This document shows positions 22,362 to 30,011 of a stretch of DNA of 64,000 bases, piece after piece; positions within the stretch are counted from its first letter, which is position 1; every line of letters begins with the position of its first letter. Source of the stretch: Fervidicoccaceae archaeon (GTDB lineage: Archaea; Thermoproteota; Thermoprotei_A; Sulfolobales; Fervidicoccaceae); NCBI GenBank assembly GCA_038734945.1, contig JAVYOA010000002.1, forward strand, positions 248,001 to 312,000. Direction: 5' to 3'. Made by a program: the position numbers and the translations under genes. Under the pieces are notes generated by a model. It was not told the DNA's origin. It did not search any database and worked only from the letters and a program-made list of their open reading frames with translations.

Positions 22362-22778
22362 TCACTTGAGAGCAGTGAACATGGAGCTCCTTGTTGCCTT
22401 AAGGCCAGGCTCTCCATGCTTTACTGATTTGGTTGTTGGAGAGAACTCTCCAAGCCTTTTTCCTATCATTTCTGGAGTGATCCTGACTGGAACAAATTCC
22501 TTTCCATTGTAGATAGCTATGGTTAGACCAAGCATTTCAGGTAAGATTATCATGCTCCTCTGATGAGTTCGGATTATCTTCTTTGAGGTCCTTCGAGCTT
22601 TTCTTATTTTCTGAAGGAGCTTGATCTGCTGGGGGGTGAATCCCCTTATAATGCTCCTCCTTTCTCTCGATGGAAATAGCTTCACTAAATCATCCATTGG
22701 AACATCGATGAGCTTATCTATAGTATACCCTCTATACCTTATTCCTTTCCACTCGCTATCTATCTCTATGTTGCTCAT
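22362..22778 (-). CDS. rps19: Ribosomal protein S19
   Basis: A 138-residue small-subunit protein (eukaryotic S15). [34 protein letters not shown] is the archaeal N-terminus, and [36 protein letters not shown] is the rRNA-binding signature. I choose ATG 22778 (MSNIEID): the length is then typical, and the longer frame starts within a leader hairpin. A TATA box lies about 95 bases upstream of the ATG, so this gene probably opens a new transcript. Confidence 0.94.
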
Positions 22779-22830: not shown

Positions 22831-22870
22831 AGTGCAAGTTTAAACTCGCGTAAAAACGTTATTGATTCCC

Positions 22871-22880
22871 GGTTTATAAG
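22871..22880 (-). promoter_or_regulatory. Probable TATA box for the rps19 operon
   Basis: The minus strand reads GACTTATAAACC. A start site about 26 bases downstream (near 22,850) gives a ~70-base leader. The promoter lies between the VWA gene and rps19, so the ribosomal genes after the insertion do not depend only on transcription through it. Confidence 0.5.
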
Positions 22881-22928: not shown

Positions 22929-24257
22929 TTAAAGATAAGCTTGAACCTCAGCATCAAGAACTTCCTTGAGCTCATTAACGTGTTTTTCCGTTGTATAAAC
23001 AAATATCTTAATGTTCTTTCTCCTTAACCTATTTATCACATGCACATAGGATTCGTCTGCAACGGTTTGCTCCATGTCGCTCACAATTATCAGATTGTCT
23101 CCAGGCTTCAGCGCAGCCTCAACCTTTCTCAGGGCCCTTGAAATATTAGTGTATCCAGATGTGCCGGCAGCGATTATCTCCTCTATTAAATGCAGCTTGG
23201 AATGCCATTTTTTCATTGATATTTGCTTTACATCCTCATCGAAGAGATAGATTCTCTTCAATGTATCGTATAGAGAAGCTACGAGGGCCACAGCCTTACC
23301 ATAATGTTTTCTCATGCTATCGCTCTTGTCAATCAGAAGAACTGCCTCCTTCTTTCTTATCCTGCCAATGTATACGGGCACTGGATAATTATTTCTCATT
23401 GTCAAGTAGACTGTCCTTCTGACATCGAACCTGGACTTTCTCTGAACGCTTCTTATTTTTCTTCCTCTCTCGCTTTTTTGTCTAGCACTATTCATCATGC
23501 TGTACGCTATTTGCTCTGCCAGCGATCTTTTGCCCTTCATAATCAGGTACTTTATGACATCTGCTGTGAACTCCTCTCCCATTTCTCTTGAAAGCACTGA
23601 GAGAGCCCAAGGAAGCTCTGGATTATATGCTAATTTCCCAATAGTTCTCTCAATAAACGAATACCTGTTCCCCAGGGATCTACCCTCCTCGCTCTCATAG
23701 GATCCCTTTCTCTTCTGGGATGCTCTTGCTATATGATCTTTCAGAAGTTCAAGATAAGCCTCGTTTCCAGTTCTATAGTAATTTCTGAGCATTTCTATCT
23801 TTCTGTATATATTCAACTTCTCGAAGTTCTCTATGGTATCCAGCTTCATTCTCTTCAACTTCTTGAAACTCATCTTTTCCATATCTTTCCAGGTAAGCTC
23901 ATACCCTTCAGTTCTTCTCCTTTCTGTTGTTTTCCTCCTTTCCTTCCTCTCCCTTTTTTCATGTGGCGCTTCCTTTTTTTGCTCTTCAATTTTCCTCTTG
24001 TATGGAGAGCCTCTGAGGACTTTCTCCAGCTTCTCGACGTCCTCCTGCCTTTTAGCAAAGACGCTGAGCAGAACCTTTGAGAGGGGAAAATAGTTGTAGT
24101 GAGTTAGCATCCTCGCTGTTCTATATAATCTTATAGCTTTCTCAATCTCCCCCGAGCTAATTTTTGCTCCCATCTCTCTCATAGCATGTGCTATTCTGAC
24201 TATCTTCTCTATTTCCTCATCATCATTGAATGAAAGATCCTCTCTTGCTGAGGTCAT
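22929..24257 (-). CDS. VWA-domain (CoxE/MoxR-partner) protein
   Basis: A 442-residue protein of the VWA type that works with MoxR AAA ATPases. The first ~300 residues are helical and very rich in Lys, Arg and Glu. The C-terminal VWA domain has a complete MIDAS metal site: DKSDS at 310-314, the Thr in GTSGYTNIS near 370, and the Asp in VSDMEQT near 394. Such pairs act in protein remodelling or metal/cofactor insertion into large complexes. It follows the MoxR gene after seven bases. It is unusual to find it between rpl2 and rps19. Confidence 0.82.
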   Translation of the reverse strand: MTSAREDLSFNDDEEIEKIVRIAHAMREMGAKISSGEIEKAIRLYRTARMLTHYNYFPLSKVLLSVFAKRQEDVEKLEKVLRGSPYKRKIEEQKKEAPHEKRERKERRKTTERRRTEGYELTWKDMEKMSFKKLKRMKLDTIENFEKLNIYRKIEMLRNYYRTGNEAYLELLKDHIARASQKRKGSYESEEGRSLGNRYSFIERTIGKLAYNPELPWALSVLSREMGEEFTADVIKYLIMKGKRSLAEQIAYSMMNSARQKSERGRKIRSVQRKSRFDVRRTVYLTMRNNYPVPVYIGRIRKKEAVLLIDKSDSMRKHYGKAVALVASLYDTLKRIYLFDEDVKQISMKKWHSKLHLIEEIIAAGTSGYTNISRALRKVEAALKPGDNLIIVSDMEQTVADESYVHVINRLRRKNIKIFVYTTEKHVNELKEVLDAEVQAYL

Positions 24258-24264
24258 AGCTCAG

Positions 24265-25284
24265 CTATACCCTCCTTTCCAAATGCATTTTCACTATCTC
24301 CATTATGATGCTCTCTTCTTCTGGTCTCTTCACAAGGGTAGCCTTAGCTCCATCTATTAGATCCTCGCTCCTAACCTTCTCGTGGTTTCTCAGTTGAGCT
24401 ATCCTGGCACTTATTCCCATCCATCTGACGCTATCGGCTACTCCAGGTCTGTAGAGAAGGTCGGTTTTCCTTATTTCCTCTATAGCTCTGAGCGCTGCTA
24501 ACACTGTATCCTCATCATACAGATCAACAGCTCTTCCAAGCCTCAGTTTCAATATCTCTAGCTCTTTGTTCAAGGTAGGATATCCGAAGGTTATCCTGAC
24601 TACCCTGCGCATAAATGCATCGCTGAGCTCATTTTGAGCAAGATCCTCTGGATTGCTTGTAAATATTATTTGAAATCCCTCTCCAGTAGCTCTGTAGACT
24701 TTCTTCAACTCAGGGATGATTATTCGCCTTTTGTCTATGATGTCTAGAAGCAAATTTTGGAACTCCTCGCTGCTTCTCCTAATTTCATCAATCAGTATGC
24801 CGCTGTCCAAGATTAGAGAAGCTAGAAGAGGTCTGGGGACAAAGGAGTTCTCGTTGAAACCTTCTTTGTATGCTCTGAGTGGATGGAAATCGCCAATAAC
24901 TCTATATTCATCGTAGTTCTCACTGCATGGCAGCACGAAAGCCCTTCTGCCTGCCCATAGCGTTAGCAGTGCCTCTCCTATTTCCGTCTTTCCGGTACCC
25001 GGAGGACCTTCAAACAGAACTGGAAAACCCTCAATGAAAGAGGAAAAGACGAGCGTTATTACATCCTCATCCACCAGCAATTTGTACTTCTCTCTCAGAA
25101 CCCTGGCTGCTTCTCTGGGATTTCGTACGCTGGGCATCCTCTCATATGCCTTGTCATAAATTTCATAAACTTTTTCCACTATGGAGTCCTGAGTCTCTAT
25201 GGACTCTTCCTCCATTTTTTCGGTCATTTTTTCCACTTTCTCAACGATCTGGAGAACTGCTTCAAGATAAAAAATTGAGTTCAA
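24265..25284 (-). CDS. MoxR-family AAA+ ATPase
   Basis: A 339-residue AAA+ ATPase. Walker A is FEGPPGTGKT (residues 91-100), Walker B is GILIDE (162-167), sensor 1 is IIFTSNPEDLAQ, and the arginine-finger region is DAFMRRVVRITF. The first ~65 residues are a helical extension. MoxR ATPases act as chaperones with VWA partners, and such a partner is encoded directly downstream. The TTG start overlaps the stop of the 81-residue gene upstream. No target protein can be named from the sequence. Confidence 0.85.
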   Translation of the reverse strand: MNSIFYLEAVLQIVEKVEKMTEKMEEESIETQDSIVEKVYEIYDKAYERMPSVRNPREAARVLREKYKLLVDEDVITLVFSSFIEGFPVLFEGPPGTGKTEIGEALLTLWAGRRAFVLPCSENYDEYRVIGDFHPLRAYKEGFNENSFVPRPLLASLILDSGILIDEIRRSSEEFQNLLLDIIDKRRIIIPELKKVYRATGEGFQIIFTSNPEDLAQNELSDAFMRRVVRITFGYPTLNKELEILKLRLGRAVDLYDEDTVLAALRAIEEIRKTDLLYRPGVADSVRWMGISARIAQLRNHEKVRSEDLIDGAKATLVKRPEEESIIMEIVKMHLERRV

Positions 25285-25526
25285 ACGTTAATATAATCTA
25301 CTTTGATACCTCTCTCCTTTCCGATAATTGAGCTAACAATTTCCACTATTTTTTTCTCCAGGCCTGGTTCCAATGACTCTCCTTTAAATTCTATGTATCT
25401 GAATTCCTTCACGAAAGATCTGTGCTCAATAGGCTCCATCCCCATCAGATTGGATAGAATTTCCTTTATTTTGTTGTGCTCGTCATCATAGAATGTCGTA
25501 TAGAAAATTCTGTAAGCCTTCGTCAA
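25281..25526 (-). CDS. Small hypothetical protein upstream of MoxR
   Basis: An 81-residue protein that I do not recognise. It reads as a small alpha/beta fold: a beta strand (AYRIFYTTFYDD), a helix (EHNKIKEILSNLMG), strands (SFVKEFRYIEFKGE), a helix (PGLEKKIVEIVSSIIG) and a last strand. The TTG start has GGTGAT upstream. That site lies directly after a C/D-box sRNA, and the stop overlaps the MoxR start, so it belongs to the inserted MoxR/VWA group. Function unknown. Confidence 0.6.
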   Translation of the reverse strand: MTKAYRIFYTTFYDDEHNKIKEILSNLMGMEPIEHRSFVKEFRYIEFKGESLEPGLEKKIVEIVSSIIGKERGIKVDYINV

Positions 25527-25537
25527 AGATAATCACC

Positions 25538-25600
25538 TGCGGTCTCAGTTTGCACCCCTCATCAATGGGACCTCAGCAAATGTAGTGCGATCATTCCGCA
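25538..25600 (-). ncRNA. C/D-box sRNA (rRNA/tRNA 2'-O-methylation guide)
   Basis: The minus-strand spacer between rpl2 and the small orf has the full C/D-box layout. A terminal stem TGCGG/CCGCA closes it. Inside are a C box AATGATC (last bases differ from RUGAUGA), a 12-base guide, box D' CTGA, eight bases, box C' TGATGA, a 10-base guide and box D CTGA. Spacings fit archaeal sRNAs, which direct fibrillarin to methylate rRNA or tRNA. I could not assign targets. The weak point is the imperfect C box. Confidence 0.72.
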
Positions 25601-25606
25601 GAGGGG

Positions 25607-26344
25607 CTATTGAGTTCTCTGGACTTTTCCTTTTCTTCTTCCCGTTCTTCTAGCAGCTATATGCCCTACTTTTCTTCCTGGCGGCGCTCTTCTTGAGACT
25701 GTTGTAGGTTTGCTCTCAGATTGGTGGCTTCCTCCTCCAAAAGGATGAGAAACCACGTTCATAGCAACTCCTCTGACCTTAGGCCACGGTCTGGATTTTG
25801 CCTTCCATTTGTAATAGGCATTTCCAGCCTTCATGAGAGGCTTCTCTATTCTTCCTCCTCCTGCTGCTACTCCAATCGTTGCCCTCGAACGAATGTCTAT
25901 CTCCTTGATTTTTCCGCTGGGAAGTACCACTGTTGCCGTAGCTAGGCTCTTTCCCGTAATCTGAGCATATCCCCCTCCAACTCTCACCAGCTTTCCACCA
26001 TCTCCAGGCTTGAGCTCAATATTGAAGATCTGCGTACCCTCCGGAATCGACGAGAGAGGAAGTATGTTTCCGTTAGCGACCTTCGCCTGTGGACCTATTT
26101 CAATGATCTGCCCTACATAGCTACCTTCCGATGCTGGAGAGTAGAAGACCTCCCCGTTCTCCAACTTTATTTCTGCTAGAGGCGTCCAGCGTCCAGGGTC
26201 ATGAACTATATTTGTTATGATGCCCCGAAATGTCCTATCCAACGGAAGCTCGGGATACCTAGCTGGAGCAACTCTAAGATGAGTTGGAGCTCTGAATGTG
26301 GGGGATCCCCTTCCTTCCCTCTGTGATAGAATCTTTTTTCCCAC
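25607..26344 (-). CDS. rpl2: Ribosomal protein L2
   Basis: A 245-residue protein at the peptidyl-transferase centre. It starts GKKILSQREGRGSPTFRAPTHLRVAPARYPELPLDRTFRGIITNIVHDPGR and ends with KVRGVAMNVVSHPFGGGSHQSESKPTTVSRRAPPGRKVGHIAARRTGRRKG, the L2 signature with the conserved His. It is followed by an sRNA and a foreign gene group rather than directly by rps19. Confidence 0.96.
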   Translation of the reverse strand: MGKKILSQREGRGSPTFRAPTHLRVAPARYPELPLDRTFRGIITNIVHDPGRWTPLAEIKLENGEVFYSPASEGSYVGQIIEIGPQAKVANGNILPLSSIPEGTQIFNIELKPGDGGKLVRVGGGYAQITGKSLATATVVLPSGKIKEIDIRSRATIGVAAGGGRIEKPLMKAGNAYYKWKAKSRPWPKVRGVAMNVVSHPFGGGSHQSESKPTTVSRRAPPGRKVGHIAARRTGRRKGKVQRTQ

Positions 26345-28698: not shown

Positions 28699-29109
28699 CT
28701 ATTTCTTGATGAGCGCTACAGCTTCTATTTCCACCTCGAAGTTCTTCGGTGGTTTCGCACTTACAACCGATCTAGCTGGCTTGTGCTCTCCCATTATCTC
28801 TGAATAGGCTTTGTTGAAAGCATCAAAATTTGAAATGTCGCTGAGAAATACAGTGACTTTCACTATGTCCTCGAGTCTGCCTCCAGCCGCCTCAACTACT
28901 GCTTTCACGTTAAGTAGGCACCTCCTTGTCTGCTCTTCTATATTTCCACTAATTGGCTGCCCAGTTTGGGGATCGATGGGAACCATTCCGGAAATAAATA
29001 GCAGACTGCATGCCTTACCATCATTGCAACTCAAATTATCAATTAGAATGCCCTGCGAATAGGGGCCTATTGGTTTTGGGGCATCCTTTGTATATACTAC
29101 TTTAATCAT
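28699..29109 (-). CDS. RidA-family deaminase
   Basis: A 136-residue Rid (YjgF/YER057c/UK114) protein. It reads APKPIGPYSQGI near the start, LLFISGMVPIDPQTGQPI, the family helix QTRRCLLNVKAVVEAAGGRLEDIVKVTVFLSDI and the end ARSVVSAKPPKNFEVEIEAVAL. The Arg in PARSVV and the Glu near the end form the active site. RidA hydrolyses reactive enamine/imine products of PLP enzymes. It works as a trimer in the cytoplasm. Confidence 0.9.
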   Translation of the reverse strand: MIKVVYTKDAPKPIGPYSQGILIDNLSCNDGKACSLLFISGMVPIDPQTGQPISGNIEEQTRRCLLNVKAVVEAAGGRLEDIVKVTVFLSDISNFDAFNKAYSEIMGEHKPARSVVSAKPPKNFEVEIEAVALIKK

Positions 29110-29159: not shown

Positions 29160-30011
29160 TCATTGAGAAAACTTCAAGATGGAAACAACTGATAGAACTA
29201 TTGGAATCGCTTCCTCTGTCCTCACAGTTCTTGTACCTTGATTCATCACGAAATTATATATTCCATTGAAGTATTCGTTTACATCTATAGAAAGCTCCTT
29301 TGCTATATCATACAGCCCCCTGTATGGCTCTCCGAAAACCAGTGTAATTTTCCATCCGCTTGTTCTCATGATCTCGCTAACTCTGCGGAGATTCTCCCAT
29401 ATCGGTTCGCCCAACCGTGAAGTTCCAATGACCGCCCTGGTTCCAGCTACTCGCTTCAAATATGAGTGAAGATAGCCAACGTTTTTGACTTCATAACCAA
29501 TCCATTCATCAGAAGACTCTATTCTTTCGACCTTGAGAGGATGAGCTGAGGTCACCCTAAAAAGGAAAACATCCCCCACCTTAATTCTGTTAGTTTCACT
29601 GGCTTCCACCCAAGTTGGAGCTCTGAGGCCAATATCAACCAGGATCCTCCCCCTTTCAACTTTTTCAACTAAACCTTCCCTAAGCTCTCCTTCTCTAGGG
29701 CTTGGCTTGACGGTGTGGGTTGGTGACTGCAAGGGATAAGCGAGACCAAGGTATTTCAGTTCCTTTCTTTTTCCATAAATTTTCCTCCTCAGATAGGGAG
29801 GAGTCCTAAAAACATTCAAGAGAAGGGCGAATCTTTTACTGGGTTCAAAGCACTCTTTCTTCCTCCTGCTCCTATAGAGAAGGATGCGTGATACCCTGAA
29901 TATCGAGGCATATCTGGCTATGATATTTGCTTTTATTGTTTCCCTAAGAATATCAGGCTCATTCTCCAATGTGCAGTATGGGAGAAGAAGCTCAATATCT
30001 ATGGGAAACAC
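29160..30011 (-). CDS. SPOUT-class RNA methyltransferase (Methyltrn_RNA_3/COG2106)
   Basis: A 283-residue protein of the archaeal/eukaryotic SPOUT family next to rpl3 in many archaea. The N-terminus IDIELLLPYCTLENEPDILRETIKANIIARYASIFRVSRILLY is typical. A central OB-like insert covers residues ~110-160 (GLVEKVERGRILVDIGL). The SPOUT C-terminus has LVFGEPYRGLYDI, NEYFNGIYNFVMNQGTRTVRTEEAIPIVLS, the knotted SAM site. It probably methylates rRNA; the site is not known from sequence. The start is GTG. Confidence 0.85.
   Translation of the reverse strand: MFPIDIELLLPYCTLENEPDILRETIKANIIARYASIFRVSRILLYRSRRKKECFEPSKRFALLLNVFRTPPYLRRKIYGKRKELKYLGLAYPLQSPTHTVKPSPREGELREGLVEKVERGRILVDIGLRAPTWVEASETNRIKVGDVFLFRVTSAHPLKVERIESSDEWIGYEVKNVGYLHSYLKRVAGTRAVIGTSRLGEPIWENLRRVSEIMRTSGWKITLVFGEPYRGLYDIAKELSIDVNEYFNGIYNFVMNQGTRTVRTEEAIPIVLSVVSILKFSQ

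Follow-up and report, generated by a model that had tools for sequence, protein, structure and literature searches.

In the window, by which we mean the whole 64,000-nucleotide stretch of archaeal DNA that was analysed, genes for a MoxR-type AAA+ ATPase and a VWA protein lie between rpl2 and rps19, and in the relatives that we surveyed the linkage of this pair to rps19 is real and old. We propose that the two proteins may form one AAA+ remodelling machine that has been kept for ribosome production or assembly, a tentative reading taken from gene context only (probability roughly 0.45). The genes follow one another on the minus strand in the order rpl3, rpl4, rpl23, rpl2, small orf, MoxR, VWA, rps19, rpl22 and rps3, and the features at and around the rpl2–rps19 interval are these:

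25607-26344, minus strand: rpl2 (uL2), Pfam Ribosomal_L2_C at 1.9e-42
25281-25526, minus strand: small orf of 81 aa with a TTG start, ferredoxin-like fold, not an obligate part of the MoxR–VWA pair
24265-25227, minus strand: MoxR-type AAA+ ATPase, 320 aa from the ATG at 25227, Pfam AAA_5 at 1.8e-18
22929-24257, minus strand: VWA protein, 442 aa, Pfam VWA_CoxE at 1.3e-14
about 22870-22880, minus strand: TATA-like promoter element of rps19, CTTATAAACC, kept in the spacers of relatives
22362-22778, minus strand: rps19 (uS19), probable ATG start at 22778, Pfam Ribosomal_S19 at 1.1e-31

The gene calls bear out the preliminary description of this DNA in placing three genes on the same strand between rpl2 and rps19. 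Its claim that the three are tightly spaced stands for MoxR and VWA, which are 7 bases apart, and falls for the small orf, which lies 80 bases from rpl2 and whose overlap with MoxR depends on a probably false TTG start. The alignment of MoxR with its orthologues sets in at residue ∼20 of the TTG-start version, which makes the TTG at 25284 doubtful, and MoxR probably starts at the ATG at 25227; since the orthologues have their starts at the equivalent of this ATG or close to it, ∼53 bases would separate the small orf from MoxR. As for the TATA box that had been assigned to rps19, CTTATAAACC is kept upstream of rps19 in the window and, among the relatives whose spacer can be aligned, in the three closest (G001, G002 and G004); given this conservation, to assign rps19 a promoter of its own is sound. 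Cotranscription of the inserted genes with L2, as predicted from the layout, is plausible.

Two other features of this part of the window were recorded. The spacer between rpl2 and the small orf (25537-25602, minus strand) contains a C/D-box-like element, AUGAUC...CUGA...UGAUGA...CUGA, flanked by CUGCGG/CCGCAG. The GGGTGCAAA core before its last box is kept in four genomes of family f1, whereas the complete set of boxes is present in just two, the window genome and G002; the element matched nothing in Rfam, and no rRNA target exceeded the shuffled guides. A RidA-like gene (28699-29109, minus strand) was recognized by eye from the sequence. It is flanked by rpl3 and by the gene at 29160-30011, whose homologue stands immediately before rpl3 in several relatives.

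We searched 203 genomes of this class of heat-loving archaea with a MoxR profile built from 25 sequences. One orthologue per genome was found in 88 genomes from nine families, of which f12, f13 and f14 are outside the order, and so the insertion is not peculiar to one strain; the tie of MoxR–VWA to ribosomal-protein genes is kept in all nine. The group is specific to the class and sharply bounded: complete members have E values between 1e-145 and 1e-167, and outside it no homologue in the phylum does better than 2e-37. Linkage was assessed in the 71 genomes that carry MoxR and a listed rps19 on the same contig. In 54 of these the gene immediately upstream of rps19, on the same strand, is MoxR, in 15 MoxR is <10 kb from rps19 in other arrangements and in two it is far away. 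The arrangement is beyond chance: in a genome of 1.5 Mb the probability that a given gene falls <10 kb from rps19 is ∼1%, against the 69 of 71 observed, where the genomes share ancestry and are not independent. The refuting case named in the preliminary description, the same trio elsewhere in relatives with no ribosomal link, applies only to the two exceptions (G049 and G071); there the pair is separated from rps19 by 88-112 kb and has kept ileS and the small gene as neighbours. In f4 and f8, where the ribosomal cluster has come apart and rps19 is parted from rpl22, MoxR–VWA still lies within a few kilobases of rps19. A literature search found no paper describing this MoxR–VWA locus.

As a separate observation, a conserved gene of 130-160 aa, divergently oriented from MoxR, occurs only in f4 and f8 and could be a lineage-specific partner. 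It is located at:

L053, 6616-7098
L054, 12899-13369
L055, 12028-12495
L057, 2528-2998
L058, 1993-2415
L137, 4370-4822
L140, 7164-7568

The trees of both proteins track those of the ribosomal proteins (Mantel r 0.84 for MoxR and 0.85 for VWA, P = 0.001), which indicates vertical inheritance. Families f1, f4, f6, f9 and f10 were recovered intact in the MoxR tree, and VWA has evolved ∼2.5 times faster than MoxR. The MoxR profile did not find the pair, among the 203 genomes, in the whole of families f2, f3, f5, f7 and f11, in G005 or in part of f9. This absence is best read as repeated loss, a less likely alternative being a later origin of the pair with respect to f5 and f11, as the deep branching is poorly resolved here. 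Two genomes lacking the pair show the site itself. In G136 (f9) rpl2 and rps19 are 54 bases apart, and in G005, a member of the window's own family (f1), the cluster is broken at precisely this point into rpl3-rpl4-rpl23-rpl2-small and rps19-rpl22-rps3, the two halves (L129 and L136) lying 57 kb apart.

Both proteins of the pair have kept their active elements. Among 25 MoxR orthologues the Walker A motif GPPGTGKT, the Walker B DE, the sensor-1 SN and the arginines RR are invariant, as are about 90 of the ∼317 columns of the orthologue alignment. The VWA protein consists of a helical N-terminal part, a basic linker, a finger-like segment (residues ∼277-300) and a C-terminal VWA domain with a complete MIDAS, whose residues D310, S312, S314, T370 and D394 are invariant in 24 orthologues that otherwise share ∼20% identity. 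In the AF2 model a helix (279-289) and a strand (296-299), both of moderate confidence, immediately precede the MIDAS strand, and Foldseek matched the fold to NorD (9qhe_G, from the NorQD complex), human MDN1-MIDAS (8ql1) and Ro60. The VWA protein is also very basic: its pI is 9.8 in the window and 9.4-10.7 in 27 of 27 orthologues from every lineage, whereas the median of 92 other long ORFs is 7.8. This high pI is suggestive only, since the remaining VWA paralogues tend to be fairly basic too, most of them at pI 8.6-9.7. A match of VWA to TIGR01029 (S7) at 8.5e-4 was taken as chance, as it scored 19 bits against a cut-off of 135.85.

How might such a pair act in ribosome assembly? In the simplest model MoxR would form a hexameric ring, which VWA would plug through the finger preceding its MIDAS, as happens in NorQ–NorD and probably in Midasin. 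The MIDAS face, together with the basic helical N-terminal part of VWA, could grip a ribosomal precursor, and an ATP-driven twist of the VWA domain could then strip or reposition a protein or RNA element. From the position of the pair among rpl2, rps19, rpl22 and rps3, the likeliest client would be an assembly intermediate of either subunit. The repeated losses suggest an efficiency or quality-control factor, not one that is essential across the class. A chaperone role in ribosome assembly is compatible with all of the evidence. Against such a role, the families without the pair (f11, f5, f2, f3 and f7) still build ribosomes, two genomes keep the pair with ileS away from rps19, and rps19 has a promoter-like element of its own.

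The main rival explanation is that the pair serves a different growth-related process and the ribosomal cluster merely provides it with high, growth-coupled expression. Genes for ileS, the small protein, PCNA-like proteins and a Cas4-like nuclease occupy the same neighbourhood without assembling ribosomes, many families have lost the pair, and the TATA-like box of rps19 is conserved. With informational genes as diverse in function as ileS and the PCNA-like genes in this neighbourhood, position alone is weak evidence of function. Against mere hitch-hiking speak a linkage to rps19 that outlasted the rearrangements parting rps19 from rpl22 in f4 and f8, and a VWA protein that is consistently very basic. 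We regard it as a serious rival that is somewhat less probable than our preferred reading. Codon adaptation to ribosomal genes did not discriminate (0.70 for MoxR and 0.74 for VWA, background 0.58-0.78).

The assembly reading concerns MoxR and VWA, and the small orf is a neighbour of the pair, normally the gene before ileS, and not an obligate part of it. The preliminary description had named conservation of all three genes as support for a functional link and had suggested that the small orf may be a partner or substrate adaptor; neither a unit of three nor an adaptor is supported, as the small orf is kept without MoxR in ten genomes, the f9 genomes that have MoxR–VWA lack it and show no ileS beside the pair at rps19, and homologues of the small orf directly precede ileS in f6, f8 (G024), f10 (G016), f13 and f14. 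The window copy matched no Pfam family and reached no NCBIfam cut-off, while its AF2 model (pLDDT 94) gave ferredoxin-like matches by Foldseek, which ruled out a ubiquitin-like MIDAS ligand. In G061 (f14) the order is rpl2-small-ileS-(other genes)-MoxR-VWA-rps19, and the window therefore looks like an old small-ileS-MoxR-VWA insert minus ileS, which in the window genome is now at G000:C9:110865-113375. The small ferredoxin-fold protein would then be a neighbour left from this ileS-linked insert.

The recurrent company of ileS raises the question whether the pair acts on some other part of the translation apparatus, for example on isoleucyl-tRNA synthetase or a multi-synthetase complex. In several families ileS and the small gene are upstream of the pair, ileS adjoins MoxR in G024 of f8 and G016 of f10, and f6 keeps small-ileS-(Cas4-like)-MoxR-VWA together even far from rps19 (L072 and L142). 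We consider this improbable, as the pair stands at rps19 in f9 without these neighbours, and ileS and the small gene are present in genomes that have no pair. In addition, an uncharacterized ferredoxin-fold gene of ∼81 aa immediately before ileS recurs across several families (L044, L059, L130, L131, L132 and L133), and in f6 a Cas4/PD-(D/E)XK-like nuclease gene is located just upstream of MoxR (L044:7457-8146, L075:4124-4783 and L072:6504-7067).

We also considered a metal-insertion or respiratory-enzyme chaperone of the NorQ–NorD or CoxD/E kind that is found here by happenstance. The VWA_CoxE match of the VWA protein fits with this, and so do the best single-domain PDB matches of MoxR, which were CbbQ (33.7 bits), a Midasin AAA domain (28.8 bits) and NorQ (28.6 bits). 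However, no nor, cbb or cox genes were recognized beside the pair in the loci examined, and all curated NCBIfam cut-offs were missed (81.6 of 475 bits for MadB, 47.1 of 266.8 bits for GvpN), and we doubt that such a chaperone is what the pair encodes. A defence system can be set aside, as PADLOC yielded merely weak AAA cross-hits.

The whole-chain PDB search with MoxR was topped by Midasin (6e-25), a score that is a sum over several AAA domains; as single Midasin domains score no better than CbbQ, the view of Midasin as clearly the closest AAA relative was weakened. MoxR had no RavA match in the PDB at E 0.01. As a control, another MoxR paralogue of the same genome matched RavA at 6e-31 and not Midasin, which indicates that the grouping of the window MoxR with CbbQ, NorQ and Midasin is specific. 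Elsewhere in this genome, beyond the window, there is a second MoxR, which is RavA-like, and a VWA gene lies ∼2 kb from it (G000:C2:95390-95698 and 93424-93753; L003 and L167).

Finally, we compared the pair with known systems. Ro60, a TROVE-VWA RNA-binding protein, resembles the window VWA in having a helical N-terminal part followed by VWA, and it was among the top Foldseek matches and gave a weak sequence match (0.009). In contrast, the full-length superposition of the two is poor (TM 0.26, rmsd 19 Å), and we know of no MoxR partner of Ro60. RavA–ViaA likewise combines a MoxR AAA+ protein with a VWA partner, but it is a different paralogue of the genome, not the window MoxR, that is RavA-like. 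MoxR/VWA pairs are a general module, according to a 2015 paper (PMC5898192). Of the features of such pairs (AAA+ clade 7 with a VWA partner), the window pair has an intact AAA+ module in MoxR, with AAA_5 above cut-off, and an adjacent VWA gene with a complete MIDAS (DxSxS-T-D). With NorQ–NorD it shares separate tandem AAA+ and VWA genes, the complete MIDAS and the VWA fold. The AF2 model also places a putative finger-like segment just before the MIDAS strand, at the position of the NorD finger, which inserts into the NorQ pore (PMC13036017, PMC9976466). Unlike NorQ–NorD, the window pair is in a ribosomal gene context without nor genes nearby, its MoxR reaches only 28.6 bits to NorQ, and the N-terminal part of its VWA is strongly basic and differently built. 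NorQ and CbbQ are encoded in operons with their target enzyme genes, whereas the neighbours here, in the loci examined, are ribosomal, ileS, PCNA-like or unrelated.

In eukaryotes, pre-ribosomes are remodelled by the AAA+ motors Rea1, Rix7 and Drg1; energy-driven ribosome assembly in archaea is, to our knowledge, poorly charted. A vertically inherited MoxR–VWA pair beside rps19 is a concrete, testable candidate, and the species that have lost it, repeatedly, in nature can serve for comparison. Should the pair act on ribosomes, the MoxR/VWA chaperones would gain a new class of clients, with a bearing on the origin of Midasin. The pair is not a Midasin, because the defining single chain with six AAA domains is absent: there are two proteins of 320 and 442 aa and no long linker. 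The MIDAS of Midasin binds UBL domains of ribosome assembly factors; the candidate partner examined here, the small orf, is ferredoxin-like, and no UBL-containing partner was found. A bolder reading, in which a dedicated archaeal ribosome-assembly motor is built on Midasin's principle, an AAA+ ring with a MIDAS-VWA that grips a pre-ribosomal client, from two small genes embedded in the ribosomal-protein cluster, and corresponds, independently or as an ancestor, to what Rea1 does in eukaryotes, seems to us less likely than not. The machine of our preferred reading would still be Midasin-like in principle, and the pair may work like Midasin, by analogy: the fingers of MoxR/VWA systems have been linked to Rea1/Mdn1 in published work (PMC9976466, PMC13036017), the AAA domain is of the dynein-related AAA_5 type and matches several Midasin AAA domains (the best single one at 28.8 bits), the VWA fold matches MDN1-MIDAS, and both systems have a link to the ribosome, here by gene context.
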